From the NCBI GenBank assembly GCA_012514975.1, contig JAAYZF010000408.1, forward strand, positions 1-33,900: DNA of 33,900 nucleotides. Reading direction: 5' to 3'. Origin of the DNA: a bacterium (GTDB lineage Bacteria; Auribacterota; UBA3054; JAAYZF01). The position numbers and the translations under genes are program-made. This document shows, piece after piece, positions 695 to 22,077 of the stretch. The notes beneath the pieces were generated by a model, which did not search any database, was not told where the DNA came from, and saw only the letters and a program-made list of their open reading frames with translations. Position 1 is the first letter of the stretch. The number at the start of each line of letters is the position of its first letter.

Positions 695-1909
695 CTACAT
701 CGTCGCCGAGGAGAACAGGTAGCGGAACTCGTGGAAGATGCGCTGGATCAGCCTGACGTCGCGCGTGATGACGAGCGCCGTCCCGTTCATGTCCTGCCTG
801 AATTCGAGCGCCTTGTCAAACGTCGTGTGAAGCCCCCCGGGCAGCTCGACCTGGACGAGATACTGGTCGTTGCGCGGCGTGAGCGACATGGCGGCGACGG
901 TGCCTCGCAGCGAGCCGTACTCACGGTACGGATAGCTGTCGCACCGGATGTAGACCGTCTGCCCGCGCTGCACCTTGCCCGAGCCGGCGACCGGAAGGAG
1001 CATCTTGCCCACGATGCTCGTCGACCGCGGCACGATGGTCATCACCTCATCGCCCGTGCGGACGAACTGGTTGTTGTTCCAGAACTGGAAGAAGGAGACT
1101 TCGCCGTCGATCGGCGCCTCGAGGAGGTACTTGTGTTCCCACTCGGCGAGCTGGCTTTCAAGGCGCTTGTACATGAGCTGGATGGAGAGGACGAGCTTGT
1201 TGCGCACGTAGCCGATCTCGGCGTTGACGTAATCGAGCGTGGCTTTCTTCTCATGGAACGCGCGTTCCGCCTCGGCGAGCTCGACCTCGGCCATCAGGCC
1301 CTTGTCGAACAGGGTCCTGCTGCTCTTGTATTTCATCTCGGCGACCTCGACCTCCTTCTCCGTCACGACTTTCTGGCGGACGAGATCGCTGACGAAATCG
1401 CCGTACCGCGGCGCCTGCACGCCGCCGGCCGCATGGCTGAGGATGAGCTGGTACGACGTGAGGTCCTCGAGGAACCCGGCATAGGACGCCTGCAGCTCGC
1501 CGAGCGAGGCGGCGCGGTCGAACACCATGTTGGATACGCAGGCCGGGTCGGCAAAGAACGGTTTGAAGCCGAGCAGCGCGCGCTTGAGCGCGAAGACGTC
1601 CTCAAGCCGCGCGGGATTGCCGATCGAGGCGAGCACCGTCCCCGCCGTCACCGCCGCCTTGTCCTGCACGTGCAGCAGCAGCGGGCCGCTCGACCGCGCG
1701 ATGGCGCTCACCGGCGGCGTGGTCGAGACGATCGTGACGCGCGCGGAGATGACGTCCGGATAGCGTATCATCCACGACACGAAGAGCAGGACGGCGAGCG
1801 TGAGGAACACCGCGGTGATGCCCCAGCGGACGAGCCAGCCGGGGATGTGGTTCATGATCTCCTGCACGTCGTCGCTTACGAGCGGCATGTCGCTGTGATC
1901 ATCGCTCAT
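695..1909 (-). CDS. HlyD-family membrane fusion protein of a type 1 peptide exporter
   Basis: In this family the adaptor is anchored in the inner membrane and links an ABC exporter to a TolC-like outer-membrane channel. The 404-residue protein has a short cytoplasmic N-terminus, one membrane segment at about 27-48 ([18 protein letters not shown]), a lipoyl/barrel half-motif at about 75-95, a long charged helical hairpin at about 165-265 ([34 protein letters not shown]), then the returning lipoyl and barrel strands ([27 protein letters not shown]). Its ATG overlaps the exporter stop codon by 4 nt (ATGA at 1909-1906), so the two are translationally coupled. The pair resembles CvaA/CvaB-type GG-peptide exporters. 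No TolC homologue lies in the window, so an outer-membrane partner must be encoded elsewhere. Confidence 0.92.
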
Positions 1910-4089
1910 GCGCCGAGCTCCAGTTGGTTCCTGACAAGCGTGTAATAGACGCCGCGCGCCGCCACAAGCTCCTCGTGCGTGCCCTGCTCGGCAACCGTGC
2001 CCGCGTCAAGCACGAGCAGATGGTCGGCATGCTGCACCGTGCTGAGCCGGTGCGCGATGATCATGACCGTCCTGCCGCAGAAGAGCGCGTTGAGGTTCTC
2101 CATGATGACGCGCTCGTTGCACGCGTCGAGCGCGCTGGTCGCCTCGTCGAAGAAGAAATACTCGGGGTCGCGATAGACTGCGCGGGCGATGAGGATGCGC
2201 TGCTTCTGCCCCTGGCTGAGGCCCTGGCCTTCGGGGCCGATCTTCGTGTTCAGCCCGAGGGGAAGCGTGTCGATGAACTCCTGCAGGTTGGCGATCCTGA
2301 CCGCGCGGACGAGCTCGTCGACGCGGACCTGCTCGTCGCCGAGCGCGATGTTCCGGGCGATCGTGTCGGTGAACAGGTAGCCATCCTGCATGACGACGCC
2401 GCATCTGCCGCGCCAGAAATGCGCCGGCAGATGGCGCAGCCGCGCGCCGCCGACACGGATGTCGCCGCGCGTCGGCTCGTAGAACTTCAGCAGCAGTTTG
2501 AGCAGCGTGGTCTTCCCGCTGCCGCTCGCGCCGACGATGGCGGTGATCTTCCCGTGGGGAATGACGGCGGAGATGTCGTGCAGCACCTCTTCCGGCTGTG
2601 GCCCGGGATAGGCGAACGAGACGCCGGCGAGCGTCAGCGTGCGGTCCTCGGGCAGCGTCGTCGCGGCAGTGAACGCGCCGGCGGCCTCCTCGTTCCGCTC
2701 GGCGTGCACTTCGCTCAGACGCTCCGAGCTTATCCGCGCGTCCTGCGCCGCGTGGATGAAGCGGATGAACTGGTCGATCGGGCCGCTGAGCTGGCCGATG
2801 ATGTACTGGACGGCGAGCATCATGCCGAGCGTCATCCGGCCGTCGATGACTTCCTTCGCGGCGATGAAGGTGATGATGATGTCCTTGGCCTTGAGAAGGA
2901 AGAGCATGCCGGCCTGCTGGTACTGCGAGAGGGACAGGCCTTTCATGTTGAGCTTGAAGAGGGCGGCCTGGAGGTGTTCCCATTCCCAGCGTTTCTGCCG
3001 CTCGCTGTTGGTAAGCTTCAGCTCGGGCATGCCGTTGATGAGCTGGATGAGCTTTCCCTGCGTCTCTGCCCGGCGCGCGAACCGCTTGTAATCGAGCGCG
3101 CTGCGGCGGCCGAGGAACAGGGCGAGCCAGCACGCCGCCAGGAGCGTGCCGCCGCAGAACACGCCGAGGATCACCGGGCTGTACACGGCGAGCACGATGC
3201 TGAAGATGACGAAATTGACGAACGTGAACAGGATGCCAAGCGTCGATGACGAGAGGAAGTGCTCGATGCGCTGGTGGTCGCCCACGCGCTGCAGCAGGTC
3301 GCCGACGGTGCGCGTGTCGAAGAACGACAGCGGCAGCGCCATCAGCTTGGTGAGGAAATCCGAGACGATCGAGATGTTGACGCGCGCGCCCACGTGCAGC
3401 AGTATCCAGCTCTGGATGAACTCGACGGACGTCTGGCTGACGAAGAGCATGATCTGCGCGAGCAGGACGGTGTAGACGAACCCGATGTCCTGGTTCGCGA
3501 TGCCCACGTCGACAATCGCCTGCGTCAGGAAGGGGAAGATGAGCGTCAACAGCGAGCCGAAGACGACGCCGAGCACGAGCTGCGCGAGATGCCGCTTGTA
3601 CCGCCAGAGATAGGAGAGCATGAACGCCATGCCGCTGCGCCGCTTCGGCGCCTCGAGCTCGTCGTGGTGGAACGCCGGGGTGGGCTCGAGCAGGAGGACC
3701 ACGCCCTCCTGGTTGCCCGCGCTGGCCCAGCCGGCAAGAAATTCGTCCCGCGAGTAGGAAAGCATCCCGTGCGCCGGGTCGGCCACGCGGACGCGGTTGC
3801 GCCCGACGGCGACGATGACGACGAAGTGGTTCTGCTGCCAGTGGGCGATGCAGGGCAGCGGCGCCTCGGTGCGCAGGATGGCGAAGGACACGCGGGCCGC
3901 GAGGGTGCGGAACCCGATGCTTTCGGCCGCGGTGCTGATGCCGAGAAGGGAGACGCCGGCGCGGGTGATGGCGCAGCGGTCGCGCAGGAGTTCGAGGGGG
4001 ATGCTCCTGCCGTAATGCCGCGCGACCATGCGGAGGCAGGTCGGGCCACAGTCTGTCGCATCAAGCTGGCGGTACACCGGGAAGTGCAT
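1906..4089 (-). CDS. Peptidase-containing ABC transporter (C39 peptidase, membrane and ATPase domains fused)
   Basis: These exporters cut double-glycine leaders on the cytosolic side and export the released core. The 727 residues contain, in order: a C39 peptidase domain (about 1-135) with Q8, catalytic C14 in DATDCGPTC, H88 in QQNHFVVI and D104 in VADPAHG; a six-helix membrane domain (about 155-450); and an ABC ATPase with Walker A GASGSGKT (520-527), signature LSQGQ (624-628), Walker B YFFFDE (644-649) and H-loop H680. The triad is intact, so this is a processing exporter and not a degenerate C39-like one. It starts 15 nt after the response regulator stop, without a clear ribosome site, and overlaps the hlyD-like gene. 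The natural substrates are the two GG-leader peptides encoded divergently at 7326-7735. That pairing is inferred from context. Confidence 0.95.
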   Translation of the reverse strand: MHFPVYRQLDATDCGPTCLRMVARHYGRSIPLELLRDRCAITRAGVSLLGISTAAESIGFRTLAARVSFAILRTEAPLPCIAHWQQNHFVVIVAVGRNRVRVADPAHGMLSYSRDEFLAGWASAGNQEGVVLLLEPTPAFHHDELEAPKRRSGMAFMLSYLWRYKRHLAQLVLGVVFGSLLTLIFPFLTQAIVDVGIANQDIGFVYTVLLAQIMLFVSQTSVEFIQSWILLHVGARVNISIVSDFLTKLMALPLSFFDTRTVGDLLQRVGDHQRIEHFLSSSTLGILFTFVNFVIFSIVLAVYSPVILGVFCGGTLLAACWLALFLGRRSALDYKRFARRAETQGKLIQLINGMPELKLTNSERQKRWEWEHLQAALFKLNMKGLSLSQYQQAGMLFLLKAKDIIITFIAAKEVIDGRMTLGMMLAVQYIIGQLSGPIDQFIRFIHAAQDARISSERLSEVHAERNEEAAGAFTAATTLPEDRTLTLAGVSFAYPGPQPEEVLHDISAVIPHGKITAIVGASGSGKTTLLKLLLKFYEPTRGDIRVGGARLRHLPAHFWRGRCGVVMQDGYLFTDTIARNIALGDEQVRVDELVRAVRIANLQEFIDTLPLGLNTKIGPEGQGLSQGQKQRILIARAVYRDPEYFFFDEATSALDACNERVIMENLNALFCGRTVMIIAHRLSTVQHADHLLVLDAGTVAEQGTHEELVAARGVYYTLVRNQLELGA

Positions 4090-4104
4090 GGCGGTGGCGT
4101 ACGG

Positions 4105-4755
4105 TTAGCGGTGTGGTGACGCGATCCCCTCGCGGACGGCGAAGCGGATGAGATCGGCGGTGGTGGCGAGCCCCAGTTTTTCCTGCACGTTGGAGCGGTG
4201 GGTATGGACGGTCGAGACGCCGACGTGGAGCATCTCGGCGATTTCCTGCGTGGTCTTCCCCTCGGCGATGAGCTGGACGATCTGCCGCTCGCGGTCGGTG
4301 ATCCGGGCGAGCGGGCCGTCCTCGCCGGGATCGAGGCGCGTGAGGTAATCCTGCACGACGAGAGGCGTAAGCGACGCGCTGACGAACCGCTCGCCGCGCA
4401 CGACGGCGCGGACGGCGGTGAGGAGCTCCTCGAGCGCGCACTGCTTGAGCAGGTAGCCCATTGCGCCGGCCTTGAACATGCGCTGGATGTAGCCGAGGTT
4501 GGCGAAGCCGGAGAGGGCGACGACGCGCCCGCGCGTCCGCTGGACGATGAGCTTGGTGGCCTCGATGCCGTTCAACTGGGGCATCTCGACGTCCATGATC
4601 ACCAGGTCGGGCTTGAGCTGCTCGGCAAGGCGCACGGCCGTGTCGCCATCCCCGGCCTCGCCGGCGATCTCGATGTCGCACTCCTTGCCGAGCACGGCGC
4701 GCAGCCCTTCGCGCACCACGGCATGATCGTCCGCGACGAGAATCCGAATTGGCAT
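4105..4755 (-). CDS. NarL/FixJ-type response regulator
   Basis: This is a two-component transcription regulator of 216 residues. The receiver domain (1-120) shows the acidic pair D9/D10, phosphoacceptor D55 in LVIMDVEMP, S82 and K104. A LuxR-type helix-turn-helix follows at about 150-210 (ITDRERQIVQLIAEGKTTQE, then STVHTHRSNV). The ATG at 4755 is chosen over upstream in-frame codons because the receiver fold starts exactly there and GGGGAGGACC lies just before it. It begins 1 nt after the kinase stop codon, so kinase and regulator are coupled and almost certainly partners. The regulator is co-transcribed with the peptide exporter, which makes the divergent peptide promoter and its own operon promoter the obvious candidate targets. 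Confidence 0.95.
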   Translation of the reverse strand: MPIRILVADDHAVVREGLRAVLGKECDIEIAGEAGDGDTAVRLAEQLKPDLVIMDVEMPQLNGIEATKLIVQRTRGRVVALSGFANLGYIQRMFKAGAMGYLLKQCALEELLTAVRAVVRGERFVSASLTPLVVQDYLTRLDPGEDGPLARITDRERQIVQLIAEGKTTQEIAEMLHVGVSTVHTHRSNVQEKLGLATTADLIRFAVREGIASPHR

Positions 4756-4756
4756 G

Positions 4757-7096
4757 TCAGGTCCTCCCCGTGTCGCGTGCAAACTCCACGTTAAACACCG
4801 CGCCGGCGCCGGGCGCGCTGTCGCACCAGACACGGCCGCCCATGCGTTCGACGAACGTCTTGACAATCGAGAGGCCGAGGCCGGTCGATGTCTCGCCTCC
4901 CGTCGGCTTCGCGCTCAACCGCGCGAATTTCCTGAACAGCTTCCGGCGGTCCTCCTCGGTAAGACCGGGGCCCTCGTCGCGCACGCTGCAGCGCACCACG
5001 CCGCTGCCCGCCGTGACGGTCATGTGCACGGTGCTGCCCTGCGGCGAGTATTTCACGGCGTTCGACAGGAGGTTGTCGAGCACCTGGCGCAGCGCGCCTG
5101 CATCGCCGCATACACGCGTGTCGAGCTCGTCGATGGCGGTGGTGACGGCGATGTTCTTCTGCGCCGCGGCGGCGGCATGCTGCGCGGCGGCTTCGCGCGC
5201 AATGGCGGCGAACTCCACCGGCTCAGACGCGAGCTTCAGCTCATCCGACTCGATCATCTCGCTGCTGAGCAGGCGCGAGGTGATGAGTTCCATGCGGCTG
5301 GCCGCCCTGAGCACCGTGCCCACCTGGCCGCCCACGTCGGGCAGCGCGGCGATGCGCTCGTCCTCTTCGAGCACGGAAGCGGTGAGCAGGAGCGCCGTGA
5401 GCGGGTTGCGCAGGTCATGGGCGACGATATGGAGCAGGTCCTTCTTCTCGCGGATGACTTCCTCGAGCCGCTGGTTGGCGCGCTGGAGCTGCGCATTGAG
5501 CGCGTCGAGCTCGACGGTGCGCACGCGGTACAGCTCCGCGTCGCGCTTGGCCGCCTCGGCTTCATGGACGGCCTGGAGCTTCTTGAAATGCGCGTCCGAC
5601 GTGTCGTTGAACACGCGTTCCTTGAGCGCGTGGAACTCCTGGTGGTGCGCGAGCGCGCCGCGATGGTCGCCCTTGCGCTCGAGCGCGCGGGAAAGACAGT
5701 GATGCGCCTTGTACGCGATTTCCTGTGACTCGATCGTCCCGGCCGTCTCGAGCGCGGCGCGCGCATGGGCGCAGGCGTCATCCAGATACCCCTGTTCGCG
5801 CCGCACGTCGCTCAGGCCGAGCAGCGCCTCGCCCTCCCGCCTGCGGTGGCCGAGCGAGGCGGCGAGCGCGCGGCTTTGCTCGAAGCATGTGGCCGCGGAA
5901 GGCAGATCGCCCATCGCATAGTGGACGTCGCCGATGTCGCACAGGGCGTTTGCCGCATCGCGTTCATCGCCCGCGCCGCGTGCGACGTCAAGGCTCTTGC
6001 CAAGCCATTCGAGCGCTTCGCCGTACGCCCCGCGGCGGTAGCACACGGCGCCGAGGTTGGTGTACGTGGGCGCGGCGCTCCGCTGGTCGCCAATGGCCTC
6101 CCAGATCGCCAGCGCCTTGTGCAGGCAGGCGAGCGCGGCATCGTAGTCCCCGGCCTTCATGTATAGAAAGCCGACGTTGTGATAGTTGTACGCCTCGCTG
6201 TACGTGTCGCCGGTGCGCTGCGCGATCTCGAGGCTCTTGATCGCGTACTCGAGCGCGCCGGGATAGTCGCCGCTCTCCTGGTAAAGCGCGCAGAGATTGC
6301 CGTACACGGCGGCCTCGACCGCCTGGTCGCCAAGGAGCTGGCCGATGGCAAGGCTCTCGTGATAGCGCGTGACCGCCCTGGCGTACTTGCCGAGCCGCTG
6401 GCAGACGAGGCCGAGCGAGTTGAGCGTCACGGCCTGGCTGCGCACATCCTTGAGCGCCCGCTTCAACCGCAGGCTGCGCAACAGGTACTTCCGCGCGTTG
6501 CGATGGTCCGACTGCTGCGCGTAGACATTGCCGATGTTGCCCGCGATGACCGCTTCGCCCCGCGTGTCCCCCGCCGCGCGCATCAGGTCCAGCGCCAGCA
6601 TGTACGCGTCAAGCGCCTCGGCATACTCGTGCAGCGTCGCATGCACGGTGCCGATGGCTTTCAGGATCGAGGCGAGGCGCTCCGTGTCGCCCGCGCGCGC
6701 AGCCGCCGTGCGCGCATAGTCGTAGAAGCTGAGCGCATTGCGGAAATCGCACAAGGCGCGGTAGGCGCCGCCGATCGCCTCATGCAGCTCCGCCTCCGTC
6801 CCGGCGCGCGCGTGGCCGTTCGAGCCCGCGAGCTCGTACGCGCGCAGCGTCTTGCAGCCCATCTCGACCGCCTGCTTGTGCCGGCCGAGAACGGCGAGCG
6901 CAAGCGTCATCGCGTGGCGCGCACGGCCCACCTGTGCGGCAATGCCATGCTGCTCGGCGGCGGCGCAGGCTTCCTCCGCCAGACGGAGCGCCTCCGCGGG
7001 ATTGGCCTCGCGCACCCTCTCGGCATGGTCGAGCATGTGCTCGACCGCCTGCTCGTCTGCGCCGGTGAACGCTTCTGTTCGGAGTGCTTCGGGCAT
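4757..7096 (-). CDS. Soluble TPR-repeat sensor histidine kinase
   Basis: The 779-residue kinase should autophosphorylate and pass phosphate to the adjacent regulator. Residues from about 15 to 480 form a long series of tetratricopeptide-like helical pairs of roughly 40-residue period; repeated elements such as YHNVGFLYMKAGDYDAALAC and YTNLGAVCYRRGAYGEALEW are clear. A coiled coil at about 490-550 leads into the HisKA domain with H560 in IVAHDLRNPLTA, an N-box at about 672-684 (VLDNLLSNAVKYSP), G1 DEGPGL (707-712), an F-box FRKFARL and G2 TGLGLS. No signal peptide or membrane segment is visible, so the sensor is cytoplasmic. The ATG at 7096 follows GGAGG at 7111-7107. It is the first gene of the operon. 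The ligand is unknown; an internal peptide is a reasonable inference because TPR folds bind peptides in RRNPP regulators. Confidence 0.93.
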   Translation of the reverse strand: MPEALRTEAFTGADEQAVEHMLDHAERVREANPAEALRLAEEACAAAEQHGIAAQVGRARHAMTLALAVLGRHKQAVEMGCKTLRAYELAGSNGHARAGTEAELHEAIGGAYRALCDFRNALSFYDYARTAAARAGDTERLASILKAIGTVHATLHEYAEALDAYMLALDLMRAAGDTRGEAVIAGNIGNVYAQQSDHRNARKYLLRSLRLKRALKDVRSQAVTLNSLGLVCQRLGKYARAVTRYHESLAIGQLLGDQAVEAAVYGNLCALYQESGDYPGALEYAIKSLEIAQRTGDTYSEAYNYHNVGFLYMKAGDYDAALACLHKALAIWEAIGDQRSAAPTYTNLGAVCYRRGAYGEALEWLGKSLDVARGAGDERDAANALCDIGDVHYAMGDLPSAATCFEQSRALAASLGHRRREGEALLGLSDVRREQGYLDDACAHARAALETAGTIESQEIAYKAHHCLSRALERKGDHRGALAHHQEFHALKERVFNDTSDAHFKKLQAVHEAEAAKRDAELYRVRTVELDALNAQLQRANQRLEEVIREKKDLLHIVAHDLRNPLTALLLTASVLEEDERIAALPDVGGQVGTVLRAASRMELITSRLLSSEMIESDELKLASEPVEFAAIAREAAAQHAAAAAQKNIAVTTAIDELDTRVCGDAGALRQVLDNLLSNAVKYSPQGSTVHMTVTAGSGVVRCSVRDEGPGLTEEDRRKLFRKFARLSAKPTGGETSTGLGLSIVKTFVERMGGRVWCDSAPGAGAVFNVEFARDTGRT

Positions 7097-7116
7097 CAGA
7101 TAGTATCCTCCACCTG

Positions 7117-7145
7117 ATTATAGCAGAGGGTGCCTTTGGGCGCAA
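7117..7145 (-). promoter_or_regulatory. Promoter of the kinase-regulator-exporter operon
   Basis: On the minus strand TTGCGC (7145-7140), 17 nt, then TATAAT (7122-7117) preceded by TGC (extended -10). The predicted start near 7110 puts the GGAGG ribosome site (7111-7107) at the very 5' end of a leader of about 14 nt. Confidence 0.7.
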
Positions 7146-7173
7146 GCAGGCATGCCGGCCAGGCATATTTGAG

Positions 7174-7205
7174 AAAAATCGTATTTTTTTCGGCCAAAAA
7201 TCGTA
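7174..7205. promoter_or_regulatory. Perfect direct repeat AAAAATCGTA x2, candidate shared operator
   Basis: AAAAATCGTA occurs at 7174-7183 and 7196-7205, a period of 22 bp (about two helical turns). The match extends to 13 of 14 bases when the following TTTT/GTTT is included. The pair sits in an AT-rich patch between the two divergent promoters: 24 nt upstream of the peptide -35 and 28 nt upstream of the kinase-operon -35. This geometry suits a dimeric activator, most simply the operon's own response regulator. That assignment is inference. Confidence 0.55.
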
Positions 7206-7229
7206 GTTTGTGCTATTGATATGCCGCTT

Positions 7230-7258
7230 TTGACGTGATATACTCGTTGTGGTACAAT
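7230..7258 (+). promoter_or_regulatory. Promoter of the GG-peptide genes
   Basis: TTGACG (7230-7235), a 17-nt spacer, then TACAAT (7253-7258). The predicted start near 7265 gives a leader of about 61 nt before the first peptide ATG. It is the best sigma70-like match in this gap on the plus strand. Confidence 0.75.
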
Positions 7259-7325
7259 AACCAGTTGCGGACGTTGCTTCCGTTTCGTCACTCGTTACAC
7301 CATAACCACTCATCAGAGGTACACC

Positions 7326-7496
7326 ATGAACAGCAGCAAAACCATTGCCGCAGTCGAAGACCGCACCAGCATCACCCGCCTCACCGCGGATGCACAGAAG
7401 AAACTCGTCGGCGGTATCGGCATCGCCCCCTCAGGCCCCTCCACGCGCGATACCAGCATCAACGGCGACACCCAGGGCTTCGTCATCTACGAATAA
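7326..7496 (+). CDS. Double-glycine-leader peptide precursor, copy 1
   Basis: This 56-residue precursor starts at ATG 7326 with AGAGG at 7315-7319. The leader MNSSKTIAAVEDRTSITRLT continues as ADAQKKLVGG (21-30). L-12, the GG at -2/-1 and a hydrophobic -4 match the GG-leader consensus. The predicted core is 26 residues: it begins IGIAPSGPSTRD and ends QGFVIYE. It has three acidic residues, one Arg, no Cys and no Lys, so no disulfide or lanthionine is possible and it does not look like a cationic bacteriocin. It lies divergent to a C39 exporter and kinase operon, the probable processing and control machinery. A longer frame in another phase covers it and could cause it to be missed. No homologue was recognised; mature activity is unknown. 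Confidence 0.88.
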   Translation: MNSSKTIAAVEDRTSITRLTADAQKKLVGGIGIAPSGPSTRDTSINGDTQGFVIYE

Positions 7497-7567
7497 CCGA
7501 AGCGCCTGAACGCAGCTCAAGACTGAAACAAACTGACGTGAAACACCATTACAGAAAGGAACGCACC

Positions 7568-7735
7568 ATGAAGACAAGCAAGACCATCGAAACCGTGAAA
7601 GCCATCAGCATCATCGAGCTCAGCAAGGACGCCCAGAAGAAACTCGTCGGCGGCATCGGCATCGCCCCCTCAGGCCCCTCCACGCGCGATACCAGCATCA
7701 ACGGCGACACCCAGGGCTTCGTCATTTACGAATAG
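7568..7735 (+). CDS. Double-glycine-leader peptide precursor, copy 2
   Basis: This 55-residue precursor starts at ATG 7568 with AAAGGA at 7555-7560. The leader MKTSKTIETVKAISIIELSK continues as DAQKKLVGG (21-29), closer to the GG consensus than copy 1 (L-12, S-11, L-4, G-2, G-1). The 26-residue core is identical to copy 1. From the codon for D in DAQKK to the end, the copies differ only at four third positions and in the stop codon (TAA versus TAG); 71 nt of the core-coding DNA are exactly identical, while the leaders diverge freely. The gene lies 71 nt after copy 1, probably on the same transcript, and is followed by a hairpin cluster and terminator. Confidence 0.9.
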   Translation: MKTSKTIETVKAISIIELSKDAQKKLVGGIGIAPSGPSTRDTSINGDTQGFVIYE

Positions 7736-14374: not shown

Positions 14375-16630
14375 TCATTCGACGGTTATTGTTGCAACGG
14401 CAGTGTTGCCGCGCTCGTCCGCGCAGACAATGCTGTGCGCGCCCTGCTGAAGGCGCCATGAAACCTCCTGATCCGCCGGTCCTGCGCTCAGAAGCGCGTC
14501 ATCGACAAACCAGTACTGCCGGGCCCCGCGCGCGCCGCCCGCGGATGCAAGGCGGATCGACTGCGCCGCGCTCGCGCTCGCGAGAATGTACGTCGAGCTG
14601 TCAGGCGGCGAGACAATGCTGAGCGCATCGCCTCCGGCAGACGCGGGCACGCCGATGCCGGCCAGATAGGTTGCGACGGCAGCGGGCCAGCGCTGCGCAA
14701 CGCCATCGCGTTCCCCCTGCATGCCGGCAATGCCGTGCATCGTGCATGGCGCCGGGTCGGAAACCCCGGCAATGTACGCCGCATGGATACAGCGCGTGCA
14801 GGCGGATGACGCCGGCCTGCCGCTGAGCGTGCACGTGTCCCTCCTGGCGATGCCGGCCGGCTGGCGGAACCACGGGGCGAGGCCGTGTGGATAGAGCGCG
14901 CGCATCAGGTCGAACGCCAGCGGCGCTGCCGCCTCGATGCCGACGAGCGCCGGCGCCGGCGTTCCGTCAGGATTGCCGAGCCAGACGGCGGCGACGTACT
15001 CGGGATTCCAGGCGACCGTCCACGCATCACGCGCGCCCGCCGATGTGCCGGTCTTCCACGCAATGCGCGGCATGCGGGCATCGGCAGCATGGCCCGCAAG
15101 CGCCAGCGCGCGCTCATCGCCGCCGAGGATGTCCGTGACGAGCCACGCAGCCTCCTCCGAGAAGATGCGCCTCCCCGGCGCCGCGGGTTGGCCGCCGAGC
15201 AGACGGTAGGGCGCGTACACGCCGCCACGCGCGAGGCACGCATATGCATTCGCCAGATCGAGCGGCGAAACAGCGGCCGCGCCGAGCACGACGGTCGCAT
15301 CGTCTGCGTACCGCGGCGCAGCGGCTGACGCGAGGCCCAGGCTGCCCAGCAGCGTGGTGAACGAGCGCGTGCCGGCCTCGCGCACGATGTGCAGCGCGGG
15401 GATGTTGAGCGAATCGACGAGCGCGGCGCGCGCAGTGACAAGGCCGGAGAACTCCTTCGCGTAATTGCGGGGCTGGTAGTCGCCCATGCGCACCGGCACA
15501 TCAGCGATCATCGTGCCGGGTGTCAGCATTCCGCGGTCGAACCCGAGGGCGTAGGCAAAGGTTTTTAGGGCGGAGCCGGGCGAGCGGCGCGCCGCCGCCG
15601 CGTTCACCTGGCCCGCGTGCGCCTCGTCGCGATAGTCAGGCGAGCCGATGAGGGCGATGACGCCGCCGGTCCTGACATCAATGATGACGGCCGCGCAGCC
15701 GTGCACGCCGTGCGCTGCCATACGCGCGGCGTGGCGCCGCACGAGCTGCTCCGCGCGGCGCTGGACGCCGGCGTCGAGCGTGGTGACCTGCGCACCCGTC
15801 CGCCCGCGCCCGCGGCGTGAAAGGACGAGATCGCAGAAATGCGGCGCGGCAAACGGCAGCGGCTGGCGCGCGACAGCCAGCGACTGCCGCGTCGCCGCGG
15901 CACGCTGGGCCGGCGTGATGAACCCGCATGCCTCCATGCGGTCAAATACGTATTCCCGCCGCGCACGCGCAGCCTCGCAGTGCCGGTCGGGGCGGAATCG
16001 CGATGGCGACTGGAGCAGGCCGATCAGCAGCGCGCTCTCGCCAAGCGTGAGGTCCCGCGCCGCCTTGGCGAAATAACAGCGGCTGGCCGCCTCGATGCCG
16101 CGCAGATTCGCTCCAAACGGCGCACGGTTCAGATACTGCTCGAGAATCGCATCCTTGCCGAGAATCCGCTCGAGCTGCACTGCGCGGAATGCCTCGATGA
16201 GCTTCGCGCGCAGCGTGCGCCGCCGCGGCTCCATCATGCGGATCACCTGCATCGAGATCGTTGATGCGCCTGACGCCGGCCTGCCAAGGCGCAGATCGAG
16301 CCACGCCGCGCGGGCAATGGCGGCCAGGTCAACGCCGTGGTGGCTGTAGAACCGTTTGTCCTCGGCGGCGACAAGGGCGCGCACAGCCCAGTCGCTCGTC
16401 TCGGCAAGGGACACGGGCGTGCACACGACATCACCGTCGCCGAGCGTGACGCGCAGCGGCCGGCCATCGCTGCTGAGCAGGCGCAGCGAAGCGGGATAGC
16501 GCCCGAGTTCCGCGCGCGGGAACGGCAGCGCGGGAAGCACGAACGCGGCAGCAATCACCCCTGCCGCGCAGCCGGACGCGCACAGCAGGGCAATCGGCCG
16601 CCATCCCGTCCTGGGAATCCTGGTGTCCAT
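14375..16630 (-). CDS. pbpC: Penicillin-binding protein 1C (bifunctional class A PBP)
   Basis: This periplasmic, membrane-anchored enzyme polymerises and cross-links peptidoglycan. Its 751 residues show an N-terminal anchor (about 12-35), a GT51 transglycosylase domain with E90 in AAEDKRFYSHHGVD and GASTISMQVIRM, ILEQYLNRAPFG and AASRCYFAKAA, then a transpeptidase with SALK (353-356), SLN (407-409) and KTG (526-528). A final BiPBP_C-type beta domain (about 660-751) is typical of PBP1C. ATG 16630 is chosen, 1 nt after the macroglobulin stop codon, because the anchor follows at once; upstream in-frame codons lie inside that gene. The macroglobulin-pbpC order matches the pairing known from E. 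coli (yfhM-pbpC). Confidence 0.94.
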   Translation of the reverse strand: MDTRIPRTGWRPIALLCASGCAAGVIAAAFVLPALPFPRAELGRYPASLRLLSSDGRPLRVTLGDGDVVCTPVSLAETSDWAVRALVAAEDKRFYSHHGVDLAAIARAAWLDLRLGRPASGASTISMQVIRMMEPRRRTLRAKLIEAFRAVQLERILGKDAILEQYLNRAPFGANLRGIEAASRCYFAKAARDLTLGESALLIGLLQSPSRFRPDRHCEAARARREYVFDRMEACGFITPAQRAAATRQSLAVARQPLPFAAPHFCDLVLSRRGRGRTGAQVTTLDAGVQRRAEQLVRRHAARMAAHGVHGCAAVIIDVRTGGVIALIGSPDYRDEAHAGQVNAAAARRSPGSALKTFAYALGFDRGMLTPGTMIADVPVRMGDYQPRNYAKEFSGLVTARAALVDSLNIPALHIVREAGTRSFTTLLGSLGLASAAAPRYADDATVVLGAAAVSPLDLANAYACLARGGVYAPYRLLGGQPAAPGRRIFSEEAAWLVTDILGGDERALALAGHAADARMPRIAWKTGTSAGARDAWTVAWNPEYVAAVWLGNPDGTPAPALVGIEAAAPLAFDLMRALYPHGLAPWFRQPAGIARRDTCTLSGRPASSACTRCIHAAYIAGVSDPAPCTMHGIAGMQGERDGVAQRWPAAVATYLAGIGVPASAGGDALSIVSPPDSSTYILASASAAQSIRLASAGGARGARQYWFVDDALLSAGPADQEVSWRLQQGAHSIVCADERGNTAVATITVE

Positions 16631-16631
16631 G

Positions 16632-19600
16632 TCAGTACGCTGCTTCAACCACGAGATTCGTCCTGCCGTGCACGCTGCGCGCCTCGAGGTCGTACATGCA
16701 CTCGGCCGAGACCGCAGGATACACGTATGCACCCGGCGTCACGGCGCGCGCGGCATAGTAGAACGCTTTCCGGCCCTTGAGACTGTCGATGAAGACAATC
16801 ATCCGGTCATCCCGCTGCTCGACGTTCTGCACTGCGACAAGTTCATTCCGGCGCTCGGCGACCCAGGGGATGATCTGCGACGTGCGCAGTTCGGTGTTTT
16901 CGATTTCAAGCCCCGCGGGCAGCAGGTCTTCGACAACAATGTTCGCGCGTTCCTCGGTGCCTGTGTCAAGCGCGACTTTGACGACGACGAGTTCGCCCTG
17001 CGCAAGCGCGGCCGCTCCGCGCGCCTTGCCGCTCACATCGAGCAGCTCGCGGCGGACACTGATCAGCCGGTCGCATTCGTTCGTCGCCGCGGCAAGCGGC
17101 ACGCCCTGTGCCCGCCAGTAGTAATAAAGCTTCCCCGCCCCGCGGTTTGTAATGGAAACCGTGCCGGCCACCTTCGATTCCCACGCGTTCGTCTCGGGCA
17201 CGGCGGCATGACCGCCACTCCAGGCAATCAAGCCGGACATGGTGTGTTCAGCGCCGCGCTGCATGCGCGCATATCTCCCGAGGGCGGCGGCGAGCCATGC
17301 GCGTTCCTGCGTGGCAAGCCAGCCGCCGCCATTCATGAGTGCCTGGGCCTGCGGAACGAGCTGCGCGACAATGGGCGCCTGGGGATCGATGTCGAGCCAG
17401 ACGAACAGCAGGACCGCGATCGACCGTGCGCCGCTGTTGAGCGGGCCGGACGCATCGCGCCGCGTCGCGCGGGCCGCAACAGGCGTGACAGGCGCGAGCA
17501 TCGCCGCCGCGTCGCGTCGTGTGCCGCACGCGGCAAGCGCGCCCGCAAGGTTCAGCCGCGAAGGCACATCGAGCTGGTCGGCAATCTCGCTGAGCCGCGC
17601 CGTCCACGCCTCGACACGCCTGCCTGCCGTCGCGAGCACCCAGCATGCATACGACCGCACCGCCATGCGCTCGCGCCATGCATCTTCCGCCTTGGGATCG
17701 CGCTGCGGAACAGGCTGCGAGACAAGCTGTTCGAGATAGCGGAGCGCCGCGTTCAGTTGGTCTCCCGGCACCTCATGGCCGTTGCGTTGCGCCTCAACAA
17801 GGAAATGCGCCGCATACGCCGAGCCCCACGCGTAGGCACCGATGCTCCGCGGCCACGTCGAGAAACCGCCGTCGGGCTCCTGCATCGACAGGACGCGCAG
17901 AATGCCGCTCTGGACATGGCGCGCAAGCTCCTCCGGCCCGAGGCTGCCCGGCCGCACGGCCCCGGCAAGATCCCCGAGGAACAGCAGTGGCAGCGATGCC
18001 GAAACCGTCTGCTCGAGACAGCCGTACGGGTATTCAAGCAGATCGGCGATGCCACCCGCAAGTTCGAGCGACGGCATGCCGGAGCAGCGCAACACGGCGC
18101 GCTCCGTCCCCGGCAGCCATGTGTACGGCGCAGCAAGCGCTACGGCGGCGCCGGGCTCGACCGCGCCGAACGCACCGTGCGCCGTCAGCCCCGCCGCGGG
18201 CCGGACAGGCAGCTCGATCACCTCGTCATAGGTCTCGGCGCCCGCTGCGGCATGCACGGTCACCCGCGCAACACCGGCGCTGGAAAGGGCGTTCACGTCA
18301 AGAGCCAGCAGCGCCTGCCCGTCCCTCGCGACGGCGATGTTCGTTGCCGCAGGCATGATGCTGACGGGCCCGTCGCACGTGACGGACATCCTGACGGCCG
18401 CATCGCCGCCCGTTTCATTGGAAATCTGGACTGGCATGCCGCACCGGTCGTCCGGCGCGAGGAATCTGGGCAGACTCGTCCTGACGACCAGCGGCCGCTT
18501 GACGGTGACGTACGCGCTCGTCGCTCCGAGCTGCGCAACGCTCGCGGATGTCGCCATCACGCGCAGCCTGCCGGTGAACTCGGGCACGGGAAGAGACACA
18601 ACGGCCGTCCCGTTCGACGCGGCCATCACGCTGCCCGCCCACAGGGCGACGGGCTTGAACCGCCGCGCGCTTACCGGGTTCAGCCGCACACGGAGCTCCT
18701 CCTCATACACGCCGTCGCCGCCGGGCGCCGACTTCAGCGCCACAAGCGTCTTCTCCCACTCGGGGAGCAGCAGGCTGTACACGTCGAACGCGTCAACGCC
18801 CAGCCGGCGCTGCTGCTCGAAGTACGCCAGCGGATCAGGCGTCTCGAAATCCGTGAGCATGCAAATGCCTTCATCAACCGCAGCCACGCTGAATTCCGTC
18901 TGCTGCGCCGCGGCGGCAACCTGGATCGTGACGGAAAGCGTGCTCTGCGGGCGGAGCACTGCCGGGGCATCGAGCGCAAGCACCGCCCGCTTGTCCGGCC
19001 GGGAAACGCGCAGGGCAATAGTGCCGCTGGCGCGATGGGGGCTGCGCATCTTCTCCGCCATGACGGGCCTGAGCACGCAGACGGAACAGTAGACGTTCGG
19101 CGCGAATGCATCCGTAACGGGTATCTCGATCTCGCGCGTGTTCTCCCGCATCTCCAGCACACGCGATTCGATGATGCGGTCGGACTCGATGGTGAAGAGC
19201 GCTGTGCCGGCGAAGGGCGCCTTGATGACGAGCCGCGCCGTCTGCCCCGGGAGGTACGTCTTCCTGTCAAGGTCAAGCTCGGCGCGTCCGGGCCGTTCCC
19301 GCGACCATGACACCCAGGCGTCGTCCGGCGACCCTGCATACATCTCGATCGATGCGCCGGCAACTCTCTCCGCCGCGCCAACGCTCAGCAGATACTGCCC
19401 GGCGGACGAACAGACGATGGAGCACACGCCCGTGCCCGCGACGAGCGCAACGTCCTGCGTGGCCACCGCGGAGAGCACGCGCTCGGATTCGTATTCGTAC
19501 CGCCCGTCGCTGCGTTTCTTGAGGACTGTCGACCACGAGATCTTGCTGAGCACGGCGGATGCCTGTCCCACCGCGGCAGGCGAACCATCGGGCAGGACCG

Positions 19601-22040
19601 CCGCAACATCCAGCCGAACCGGCTCTCCCGCCCGCACCGCATCACCGTCAAAGCCCGGCTGCACGCCGAGATACGCGTCATACACGTCAACCATCCGCGT
19701 CGTAAAAGCCGAGACGGCACGGCCGCTGCCCTCGCGCACGGTCGCGCTGAGCACAGCCTTGATCGCCGACGGCGGGCGCCACGTCGCAACGACCTCGGCG
19801 ACAAACTGCGTCGCGCCGTCCGCGTCAAGCATCCCGCTGCCGGCCACGCGCTCGATCTCGGGGAATTTCCTCTCGCCGTCCCCGAACACGTAGCCGCTCC
19901 ACCGCGGATGCGTGAACGCCACGGGAACAAACCGCACGGACGCCTCGACCGGCTGCCCCGCCGCGGGCCTGCCGAACAGAAACTCCGCAAGAACGGTGAA
20001 CGGGAATGATGCGCTCGCACGCGCCGTGTCAGTCGTCACGCCCGCCTTGATCTGCGGCGGAACGAAGTCCTCGATGCTCACCGTCGTCGAGCCGAGCAGC
20101 GTCTCGGTGCCTGGCATGAGCAGTTCAAAGGTATAACGGCCCGTGCGGAGAAACACGGGCAGGTCGCTGTCCAGCGCCGCCGTGCCCTGCGCGCTGAGCA
20201 TGGCATTCAGCGTGCGGTATGGACGCCCGTCCGGCTTGGTGACGCGGAGCACGACGGGAAACGGCTCCGGGCAGTTCATCTCGCGGTCGCGCACGATGGC
20301 CTTCACATGCGCCGTCTCGCCCGGCCGGTAGATGCCGCGGTCGGTGAACACGGACGCCTCGCAGCCCCGGCTGAGATACGCGATGCCGTCGGTGCCCCTA
20401 TCGCGTTCGAGCTTCGCGCCGTCCAGCCTGAGATATGACAGGTCGCTCCCGCGCTCGGCGACGACGACATACGGCACCGAGCCCGTGGCCGCGAAATCGC
20501 CGGTGAAGCGCACGATGCCGTTCGTGCCCGTGACACCAACCGCCGCTGCCTGGTTCTGCGCCGAGTACACACGCACCGTCACGTCGGCAATGGGGCCGGC
20601 CGTGCGGATCGAGTTTGCCCACACGAGCATATCCTTGTCTGACTGGCGCACGGAGAGCCCGATGTCGGTGGCGACGACGAGCTGGCGTTCGTCGCCCGTT
20701 CTGTCCGCGGAGACGGTGAGAAGAAATGCGCCCGATACGTGTCCGCCCGTCAGATCATCGAGCCGCACGAACACTTGCGTCGCCACGTTCGGCTCGAACG
20801 GCACCGGGTACTCGTGGCTGGCCACAAGCTGACTGAGCCTGCTGTGCCCGCCCCCCGGCCACCAGCCGCTCCAGCGCGATTCCTGGTACGCGAAGTGCAC
20901 CAGGTTGTTCGGGTAGATCCGTTCCGCCGCGAGGGCGATCCTGGGCACGTTCACGCACTCGATCGCGACGAGCTTGCTGCCCGCGGTGGAGAGATACGTT
21001 CCCTGGCCGGCGAAGCGGGTCGCAGCCGCCCGGTCAGGCATGTACACCGTGCGTGTAACAGCCGCCTGCAACGCGGTGTTGTTCCTGCCCTTCAGCCCTT
21101 GCGTGAACGTGACGGTGTACGTCTTGCCTGGCTGGAACGCGCCGGTCAGTCTGCACCCGCTCTCGCGCCAGCCATGGATCTGTTCAACGGTGAACGCGAC
21201 ACTGGGAGAGATGGTAATGCAGTCGCGCAGCGTGCTGAAGTCGAGCGGTGCGGTGAATTCCGCGCTGATGGCGCACGGCCCGAATGGATCGCTCTGCCCT
21301 GCGATGGAATCCAGCGCAAGCCCCTGTCTGAGCTTGAGCTCCCTGCTCACTGCGTGCTCCGTGCCGAGCGGCCCGGCGGCGCTGCGCAATCCCTCGGCAA
21401 TCGTCACGGTGATGTCGTCGCGCGAAAGCCATTCGGTCTCGATGAGCACATCACGCGACTCGGCCCTGCCGGCAAGCTCATAGCCAACCGGCTCGCCGTC
21501 GCACGTGACGGTCACGAAACCTTTCATCTGCTTGGCCATGGGCGCGCTGGAGAAGCGAAGGCGGAGCGTCGCATGGCGGTCCTTGCCGTCCACCTGCGTC
21601 ACATCAAGCAGTTCGAGCGGTCGAGTGTGGAACGTGAAGCGCGGCGGCCCTGCCAGGCCTGCACGGCGGGTGAACGATTCATCGAGCGCGGCGCCGAACG
21701 CGGTGCATTCGCGCCACGGCGCCGCGGGCTCGAACACGAGTTCATCCTCCGCCAGCCAGCAGAACCGGCCGGCAACCGCGGGCGTGAAGCTCACCGGGCC
21801 GCTGGACGTCCACCCGCCGATTTCGCCGCGCGGGGCGACGGGCTCGCTGAAACGCCACGTGAGCGCGGCTTTGTTGCTGACCATCGCGCCCTCGCCGGGC
21901 GTGAACGCAACGGCAACGGGCTTGCGCCCGCCCTGCCGGTCAAACCATCGGACAAGCTTGAGTACCGCGTAGCCGTTGATCAACAGGAACGCGCAGCAAA
22001 GAAGAAACCACTGTCTGCGTACCGCCCGGCTGGATTGCAT
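16632..22040 (-). CDS. Bacterial alpha-2-macroglobulin with intact thioester motif
   Basis: Bacterial alpha-2-macroglobulins trap foreign proteases in the periplasm and work beside PBP1C, which repairs the wall. The 1802-residue protein has an N-terminal membrane segment (about 10-30, WFLLCCAFLLINGYAVL), an Ig-like domain region, a series of MG domains with the bacterial hallmark DRGIYRPGETAHVKAIVRD, and the thioester motif YGCLEQ with C1341 and Q1344, followed by the alpha-helical thioester domain. No clear lipobox is seen, so it appears to be anchored by its helix and not by lipid. ATG 22040 is chosen because AGAGG (22049-22045) precedes it; an in-frame ATG at 22070 overlaps the -10 box. 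The pbpC start follows its stop by 1 nt. Confidence 0.93.
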   Translation of the reverse strand: MQSSRAVRRQWFLLCCAFLLINGYAVLKLVRWFDRQGGRKPVAVAFTPGEGAMVSNKAALTWRFSEPVAPRGEIGGWTSSGPVSFTPAVAGRFCWLAEDELVFEPAAPWRECTAFGAALDESFTRRAGLAGPPRFTFHTRPLELLDVTQVDGKDRHATLRLRFSSAPMAKQMKGFVTVTCDGEPVGYELAGRAESRDVLIETEWLSRDDITVTIAEGLRSAAGPLGTEHAVSRELKLRQGLALDSIAGQSDPFGPCAISAEFTAPLDFSTLRDCITISPSVAFTVEQIHGWRESGCRLTGAFQPGKTYTVTFTQGLKGRNNTALQAAVTRTVYMPDRAAATRFAGQGTYLSTAGSKLVAIECVNVPRIALAAERIYPNNLVHFAYQESRWSGWWPGGGHSRLSQLVASHEYPVPFEPNVATQVFVRLDDLTGGHVSGAFLLTVSADRTGDERQLVVATDIGLSVRQSDKDMLVWANSIRTAGPIADVTVRVYSAQNQAAAVGVTGTNGIVRFTGDFAATGSVPYVVVAERGSDLSYLRLDGAKLERDRGTDGIAYLSRGCEASVFTDRGIYRPGETAHVKAIVRDREMNCPEPFPVVLRVTKPDGRPYRTLNAMLSAQGTAALDSDLPVFLRTGRYTFELLMPGTETLLGSTTVSIEDFVPPQIKAGVTTDTARASASFPFTVLAEFLFGRPAAGQPVEASVRFVPVAFTHPRWSGYVFGDGERKFPEIERVAGSGMLDADGATQFVAEVVATWRPPSAIKAVLSATVREGSGRAVSAFTTRMVDVYDAYLGVQPGFDGDAVRAGEPVRLDVAAVLPDGSPAAVGQASAVLSKISWSTVLKKRSDGRYEYESERVLSAVATQDVALVAGTGVCSIVCSSAGQYLLSVGAAERVAGASIEMYAGSPDDAWVSWSRERPGRAELDLDRKTYLPGQTARLVIKAPFAGTALFTIESDRIIESRVLEMRENTREIEIPVTDAFAPNVYCSVCVLRPVMAEKMRSPHRASGTIALRVSRPDKRAVLALDAPAVLRPQSTLSVTIQVAAAAQQTEFSVAAVDEGICMLTDFETPDPLAYFEQQRRLGVDAFDVYSLLLPEWEKTLVALKSAPGGDGVYEEELRVRLNPVSARRFKPVALWAGSVMAASNGTAVVSLPVPEFTGRLRVMATSASVAQLGATSAYVTVKRPLVVRTSLPRFLAPDDRCGMPVQISNETGGDAAVRMSVTCDGPVSIMPAATNIAVARDGQALLALDVNALSSAGVARVTVHAAAGAETYDEVIELPVRPAAGLTAHGAFGAVEPGAAVALAAPYTWLPGTERAVLRCSGMPSLELAGGIADLLEYPYGCLEQTVSASLPLLFLGDLAGAVRPGSLGPEELARHVQSGILRVLSMQEPDGGFSTWPRSIGAYAWGSAYAAHFLVEAQRNGHEVPGDQLNAALRYLEQLVSQPVPQRDPKAEDAWRERMAVRSYACWVLATAGRRVEAWTARLSEIADQLDVPSRLNLAGALAACGTRRDAAAMLAPVTPVAARATRRDASGPLNSGARSIAVLLFVWLDIDPQAPIVAQLVPQAQALMNGGGWLATQERAWLAAALGRYARMQRGAEHTMSGLIAWSGGHAAVPETNAWESKVAGTVSITNRGAGKLYYYWRAQGVPLAAATNECDRLISVRRELLDVSGKARGAAALAQGELVVVKVALDTGTEERANIVVEDLLPAGLEIENTELRTSQIIPWVAERRNELVAVQNVEQRDDRMIVFIDSLKGRKAFYYAARAVTPGAYVYPAVSAECMYDLEARSVHGRTNLVVEAAY

Positions 22041-22068
22041 GATGCCTCTGTTACAGGTTTTACAGAGC

Positions 22069-22077
22069 ATTATACCA
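22069..22077 (-). promoter_or_regulatory. Extended -10 promoter of the macroglobulin operon
   Basis: On the minus strand TGG-TATAAT (22077-22069) forms an extended -10 box. The -35 region is weak (TCTTTC). The predicted start near 22062 gives a leader of about 22 nt carrying AGAGG. The -10 overlaps an upstream in-frame ATG, which excludes that ATG as the start codon. Confidence 0.55.

Follow-up and report, generated by a model that had tools for sequence, protein, structure and literature searches.

The window analysed here, a 33,900-nucleotide stretch that makes up an entire contig (JAAYZF010000408.1; C387) of a bacterial genome assembly from the phylum Auribacterota (GCA_012514975.1; G000; 4.1 Mb in 484 contigs, 76% complete), contains a six-gene locus that probably serves as a dedicated peptide-export system governed by a cytosolic two-component pair of its own. 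In it, a minus-strand operon encoding an HlyD adaptor, a C39-ABC exporter, a NarL-type response regulator, and a histidine kinase with tetratricopeptide repeats (TPR) lies divergent from two genes for small peptides with double-glycine (GG) leaders (Table 1). This reading is carried by the gene set itself, the intact catalytic triad of the exporter, a kinase without membrane segments, the recurrence of the operon in related genomes, and the conserved geometry of a direct repeat and a promoter upstream of the peptide genes.

The operon, its kinase and the twin peptides

An earlier note on this DNA, made from the letters alone, had described the same six genes at the same coordinates, and its gene positions, domain types, C14/H88/D104 triad, and GG leaders are borne out by Pfam searches and by alignment of the exporter to 6mpz (LahT) and 4ry2 (PCAT1), in whose C39 protease domains the three residues find their counterparts. 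Within the operon, the exporter and adaptor genes overlap by 4 nt, and gaps of 15 and 1 nt separate the regulator from the exporter and the kinase from the regulator, respectively. The exporter has the PCAT architecture, namely an N-terminal C39 domain with a Cys/His/Asp triad together with ABC membrane and ATPase domains, and it is predicted to cleave after Gly-Gly, given that both precursor leaders end in QKKLVGG. It scored 439 bits against the NHLM exporter equivalog TIGR03796, below the cut-off of 853, and the lanthipeptide leader model NF038153 likewise gave 13.9 bits, under its cut-off of 22. As the earlier note had also stated, no modification enzyme adjoins the window's operon, and no small membrane-protein immunity gene is obvious between or beside the peptide genes among the listed frames, novel immunity proteins being possible.

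The kinase consists of a TPR superhelix that extends to about residue 475, a long signalling helix (residues 478-578), a HisKA domain with H560, and a HATPase domain. In its AlphaFold model (mean pLDDT 84.5), the superhelix is linked to the kinase core via a single long helix, and the TPR part resembles the TPR domain of LGN. No membrane segment is evident in the kinase, because its highest 19-residue hydropathy is 1.06, versus 2.59 for the exporter and 2.34 for the HlyD adaptor; by the same measure, none of its relatives has a transmembrane segment. The earlier description of the kinase as free of membrane segments thus holds.

The two peptide precursors are 80% identical overall, and their 26-residue cores, IGIAPSGPSTRDTSINGDTQGFVIYE, are identical, acidic (calculated pI 4.3), and free of Cys. 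At the DNA level, the 26 core codons differ by a single synonymous nucleotide, versus 24 differences across 28 aligned leader codons; the near-identical stretches, which cover the core part of each gene, run from 7364 to 7495 and from 7603 to 7734, with diverged leaders. Since the silent positions agree too, the cores have been homogenised recently by duplication or gene conversion, and their identity reflects this rather than selection alone, and in itself says little about selection. The restriction of the DNA identity to the core suggests gene conversion, or duplication of a cassette, confined to the mature peptide. A small, acidic, Cys-free core would point, albeit weakly, to a signal or an effector rather than to a pore-forming bacteriocin. 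Two faint leader-like matches elsewhere in the same genome (on C78 and C116) were discarded, as the part of one locus (L017) that was read lacks a GG peptide and the other (L016) carries an internal stop.

Table 1. Features of the peptide-export locus, in window coordinates
Feature	Position	Strand	Basis
HlyD-family periplasmic adaptor	695-1909	-	Pfam HlyD_3 5.6e-14; one N-terminal membrane segment
C39 peptidase-ABC exporter, leader-cleaving type	1906-4089	-	Pfam Peptidase_C39 8.9e-33, ABC_membrane, ABC_tran; triad C14/H88/D104
NarL/LuxR-type response regulator	4105-4755	-	Pfam Response_reg 1.7e-26, GerE 5.9e-16
Cytosolic TPR histidine kinase	4757-7096	-	Pfam TPR_12, HisKA 3.5e-10, HATPase_c 4.7e-27
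Direct repeat AAAAATCGTAtTTT / AAAAATCGTAgTTT, period 22, proposed regulator operator	7174-7209	+	Shuffle test; genome pattern search
Peptide-gene promoter, sigma-70-like, TTGATA-17-TATACT	7216-7244	+	Same position relative to repeat in L098
Alternative overlapping promoter, TTGACG-17-TACAAT	7230-7258	+	Sequence match
GG-leader peptide 1, 56 aa, core IGIAPSGPSTRDTSINGDTQGFVIYE	7326-7496	+	Upstream Shine-Dalgarno-like AGAGG
GG-leader peptide 2, 55 aa, core IGIAPSGPSTRDTSINGDTQGFVIYE	7568-7735	+	Upstream Shine-Dalgarno-like AAGGA

Beyond the locus, the minus-strand genes at 14375-22070 read from their sequence like an ordinary pair encoding penicillin-binding protein 1C and an alpha-2-macroglobulin-like protein.

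Conservation in relatives and the peptide promoter

Among 44 genomes of the phylum, the exporter was found (E < 1e-100) in only five, all of this order and belonging to three families (f1, f2, and f3). The order kinase, regulator, exporter, HlyD is complete at locus L098 of genome G002 (f3), a relative from a family other than the window's whose exporter is 69% identical. In G009 (L099) the four genes follow in this order too, the kinase being truncated by the contig end; G001 (f2; L100) has a likewise truncated kinase, the regulator, an exporter interrupted by an assembly gap of 5 N, and HlyD. In G005, the exporter and a cut HlyD gene lie on one contig and the kinase on another. Because the order recurs in L098, and in part in L099 and L100, the linkage of kinase, regulator, exporter, and adaptor is real. 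Identity between families is 68-69% for the exporter, 54-58% for HlyD, 43-44% for the regulator, and 33-46% for parts of the kinase. In a tree built without G001, the operon exporters form one clade (SH-aLRT 100) next to those of Edwardsbacteria and Ignavibacteria. In a further set of 80 exporters, which came almost entirely from Bacteroidota and related phyla (52 of the loci offering 4 kb or more on each side), HlyD is usually adjacent, and none has a TPR kinase or NarL-type regulator within 5 kb. Within this order, the four-gene operon is thus conserved as a unit, and the exporter at its base is of a widespread type.

The divergent intergenic stretch of the window holds two repeat units, AAAAATCGTATTTT at 7174 and AAAAATCGTAGTTT at 7196, the second of which begins 20 nt before the TTGATA-17-TATACT promoter. 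Its counterpart in L098 consists of AAAAATTACAACTTTT twice with a period of 21, and again the second unit begins 20 nt before a promoter, TTGATT-17-TATAAT. No shuffled sequence was as good as either repeat (0 of 500 in each case), and in the 4.1-Mb genome the pattern occurs once, at the peptide promoter, even with up to three mismatches allowed. The position of the repeat at the peptide promoter, its uniqueness in the genome, and the geometry kept in L098 tie the regulator to the peptides, and we propose the repeat as the site at which the regulator would bind. Together with the operon order in relatives, this conserved geometry agrees with the earlier note's inference that the parts belong together.

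In two relatives, a short divergent gene with a Shine-Dalgarno sequence and ATG lies upstream of the kinase and faces the conserved promoter, beginning MKNLNTLKNERIIVE in L098 and MKTLKN in L105. Both run into the contig edge, after about 15 codons (L098:1-60) and 6 codons (L105:1-40), and the halting of two assemblies in the same divergent gene hints at repeated peptide genes there. Attempts to extend these cut genes of G002 and G005 by their start-site pattern matched only the places already known. The promoter pattern was rejected as a finder of further peptide genes, its extra matches in G005 and G002 preceding an unrelated conserved gene pair, and the contig start of L111 proved to be a low-complexity repeat.

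Two g3 genomes carry, after HlyD, a gene for a fused glycosyltransferase/sulfotransferase (Sulfotransfer_3; L098:7137-11054 and L099:7920-10330), near which lies a second sulfotransferase-like gene without a Pfam match. Modification of a peptide or of a glycan by these enzymes is possible. As a conserved modifying enzyme the sulfotransferase was rejected in favour of an accessory one, as neither G000 nor G001 contains a match to it, and G005 (L118) has another glycosyltransferase upstream.

Preferred reading and rival explanations

In the mechanism that we propose, the TPR kinase would answer a cue that is presumably intracellular and phosphorylate the NarL-type regulator, which would then bind the 22-nt-period direct repeat near the divergent promoter and activate both peptide genes. 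Each precursor would be cleaved behind its Gly-Gly by the exporter's C39 domain, and the 26-residue core would leave the cell through the ABC/HlyD pair, probably joined by a TolC-type outer-membrane channel.

Several observations weigh against this proposal. The conservation of the peptides is unproven, because in every relative the contig ends before a complete peptide gene, and tblastn searches for peptide homologues in six order-level relatives gave matches at chance level only. At L105 the promoter is the same and the repeats are weak, with 249 of 500 shuffles as good. The operon regulators do not form one clade, so the kinase-regulator pair may have been exchanged or may have diverged fast; a single origin of these regulators was not adopted, the regulator tree being undecided. 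Finally, the window's genome encodes a second, paralogous TPR kinase-regulator pair (L110, on C165) with no exporter alongside, and G007 carries another such pair (L109) whose downstream side is lost at a contig end, so kinases of this TPR type are not confined to peptide export. The earlier note had held that uncoupled parts would speak against its proposal, and to some extent they do occur, as the pair at L110 lacks an exporter and all 80 of the Bacteroidota/FCB-type exporters lack a TPR kinase within 5 kb. The C165 pair adjoins large surface or RHS-type genes.

These paralogues also bear on whether kinase and regulator form a sensory pair of general use that came to lie beside the exporter by chance. 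Such an origin would suit the paralogous regulators elsewhere in the genome (on C271, C255, and C272, and on C165 with its own TPR kinase), as well as the 43-44% identity of the window's regulator to the operon copies, which is about the same as its 41% identity to an unlinked one. Conversely, chance would hardly account for a gene order kept across families or for a proposed operator that is unique in the genome, sits at the peptide promoter, and retains its geometry in L098, and we consider this explanation very unlikely. A bacteriocin locus, in which the cores would be antimicrobial and their production timed by the two-component pair, is rather unlikely. Bacteriocins are a common cargo of C39/HlyD exporters with GG leaders, and three tandem GG peptides also adjoin the nearest exporter outside the order; on the other hand, the listed frames include no evident immunity gene, and the twin cores are identical, acidic, and without Cys.

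A closed autoinducing (quorum) circuit, in which the exported core or the uncleaved cytosolic precursor would be the TPR ligand and the peptide would drive its own expression, likewise seems unlikely to us. The co-conservation of kinase and exporter speaks for it, as does the ability of TPR domains to bind extended peptides, which extends to the LGN domain closest to the kinase model; moreover, the repeat geometry is like that of SilCR-induced promoters, on which SilA acts via a pair of 10-bp repeats set 11 bp apart (PMC2766830). The kinase, however, has no extracellular domain, and the oligopeptide-binding protein SBP_bac_5 was not found in G000, G001, G002, or G007 (it is present in G005 and G009), these genomes being 64-86% complete and other importers being possible. 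Where the earlier note had proposed a peptide-signalling or autoinducing system, peptide export plus regulation is retained as the best reading, and the self-contained circuit is not, the kinase being cytosolic. Going by the structural model, the TPR domain could possibly sense peptide inside the cell, the precursor included. That the soluble kinase reads the system's own GG peptide there, either as uncleaved precursor (export-status sensing) or as re-imported core, strikes us as quite improbable.

Comparison with known systems and significance

In the Xanthomonas raxX-raxSTAB cluster, a GG-leader precursor is served by the leader-removing RaxB of the RaxAB complex, with raxH and raxR as neighbours; the RaxH-RaxR pair is an orthologue of ColS-ColR, and what it does in the control of rax is a matter of dispute (PMC6637879, PMC8306577). 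The window's locus thus resembles Rax in belonging to a Gram-negative-type bacterium and in having a short double-glycine precursor, a leader-removing exporter, and a two-component pair close by. It differs in its want of a counterpart to the tyrosine sulfotransferase RaxST, as none adjoins the operon and the G002 enzyme is unmatched in G000, and in that its pair belongs to the operon of the exporter and consists of a soluble TPR kinase and a NarL-type regulator, where Rax has a membrane kinase of the RaxH/ColS type.

Streptococcal Com, Blp, and Sil circuits use polytopic membrane kinases as receptors together with LytTR regulators, whereas a soluble TPR kinase and a GerE regulator are found here. 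ComABCDE, BlpABC-RH, and Sil nevertheless share with the window a GG peptide, a C39-type exporter with an accessory protein, and a two-component pair (PMC5295010, PMC2766830). A further shared trait is a direct-repeat operator, in the window a proposed one, that lies at the promoter of the peptide genes and whose period is close to two helical turns: 21 in Sil, 22 in the window, and 21 in L098. Autoinduction by the exported peptide belongs to the streptococcal circuits and is hypothetical in the window's locus.

The closest named exporter sequences, at 53-60% identity, are C39/HlyD exporters of Bacteroidota, many of which have GG peptides nearby. In five Bacteroidales loci (L074, L080, L084, L090, and L097), a kinase gene lies divergent from a GG peptide gene, followed by a C39 exporter and HlyD; the peptides have 45-49 residues, a METTFEKLNDQEMINVVGG-type leader, and an acidic, Cys-free core. 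At L097:6586-12463, the regulator is of the OmpR type and the kinase, as read from its sequence, apparently spans the membrane twice and has a part in the periplasm. The Bacteroidota differ from the window in that the TPR kinase-NarL pair is missing within 5 kb of all 80 exporters surveyed. The nearest named exporter outside the order, from Edwardsbacteria, adjoins three tandem 38-residue GG peptides (L018:8287-8707, minus strand) with near-identical leaders and variable, Tyr-rich tails.

In RRNPP systems, a cytosolic TPR regulator without a kinase domain responds to a small secreted peptide that is re-imported via an oligopeptide permease. The window's locus is similar in pairing a cytosolic TPR protein with a small secreted peptide, and differs in its kinase domain and in that the permease binding protein was not found in its 76% complete genome. 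In Synechococcus, several small GG peptides (EbfG) that act in biofilm formation and not as bacteriocins are secreted with the help of the C39 peptidase transporter PteB, and as far as the cited account goes, no linked two-component operon is described there (PMC4997328). Gram-negative bacteria had been screened for GG peptides and transporters as possible signals or bacteriocins by Dirix et al. (2004; as cited in PMC6637879).

Given that Rax, the streptococcal circuits, and the five Bacteroidales loci all join a GG peptide, a C39 exporter, and two-component proteins, the earlier note went too far in stating that the locus matches no known pattern. The parts are of known kinds; their combination with an intracellular kinase is unusual and is conserved in relatives. 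New are the lineage, the conserved geometry of the proposed operator, and the fact that a soluble TPR kinase and a NarL-type regulator share an operon with the exporter.

Little has been charted of peptide signalling among Gram-negative lineages, where GG peptides have for the most part been classed as bacteriocins. The locus provides a compact, conserved, and testable case, with one operon, one promoter bearing a unique proposed operator, and a product of 26 residues that is accessible to synthesis. Were the soluble TPR kinase to sense the peptide, this would be a new way of reading a secreted peptide, and a system that reads its own peptide inside the cell would bring together, in a Gram-negative-type bacterium, export as in Com and reception by a cytosolic TPR protein as in RRNPP. 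If the kinase does not sense the peptide, the locus would still show that export under a dedicated internal sensor is feasible.

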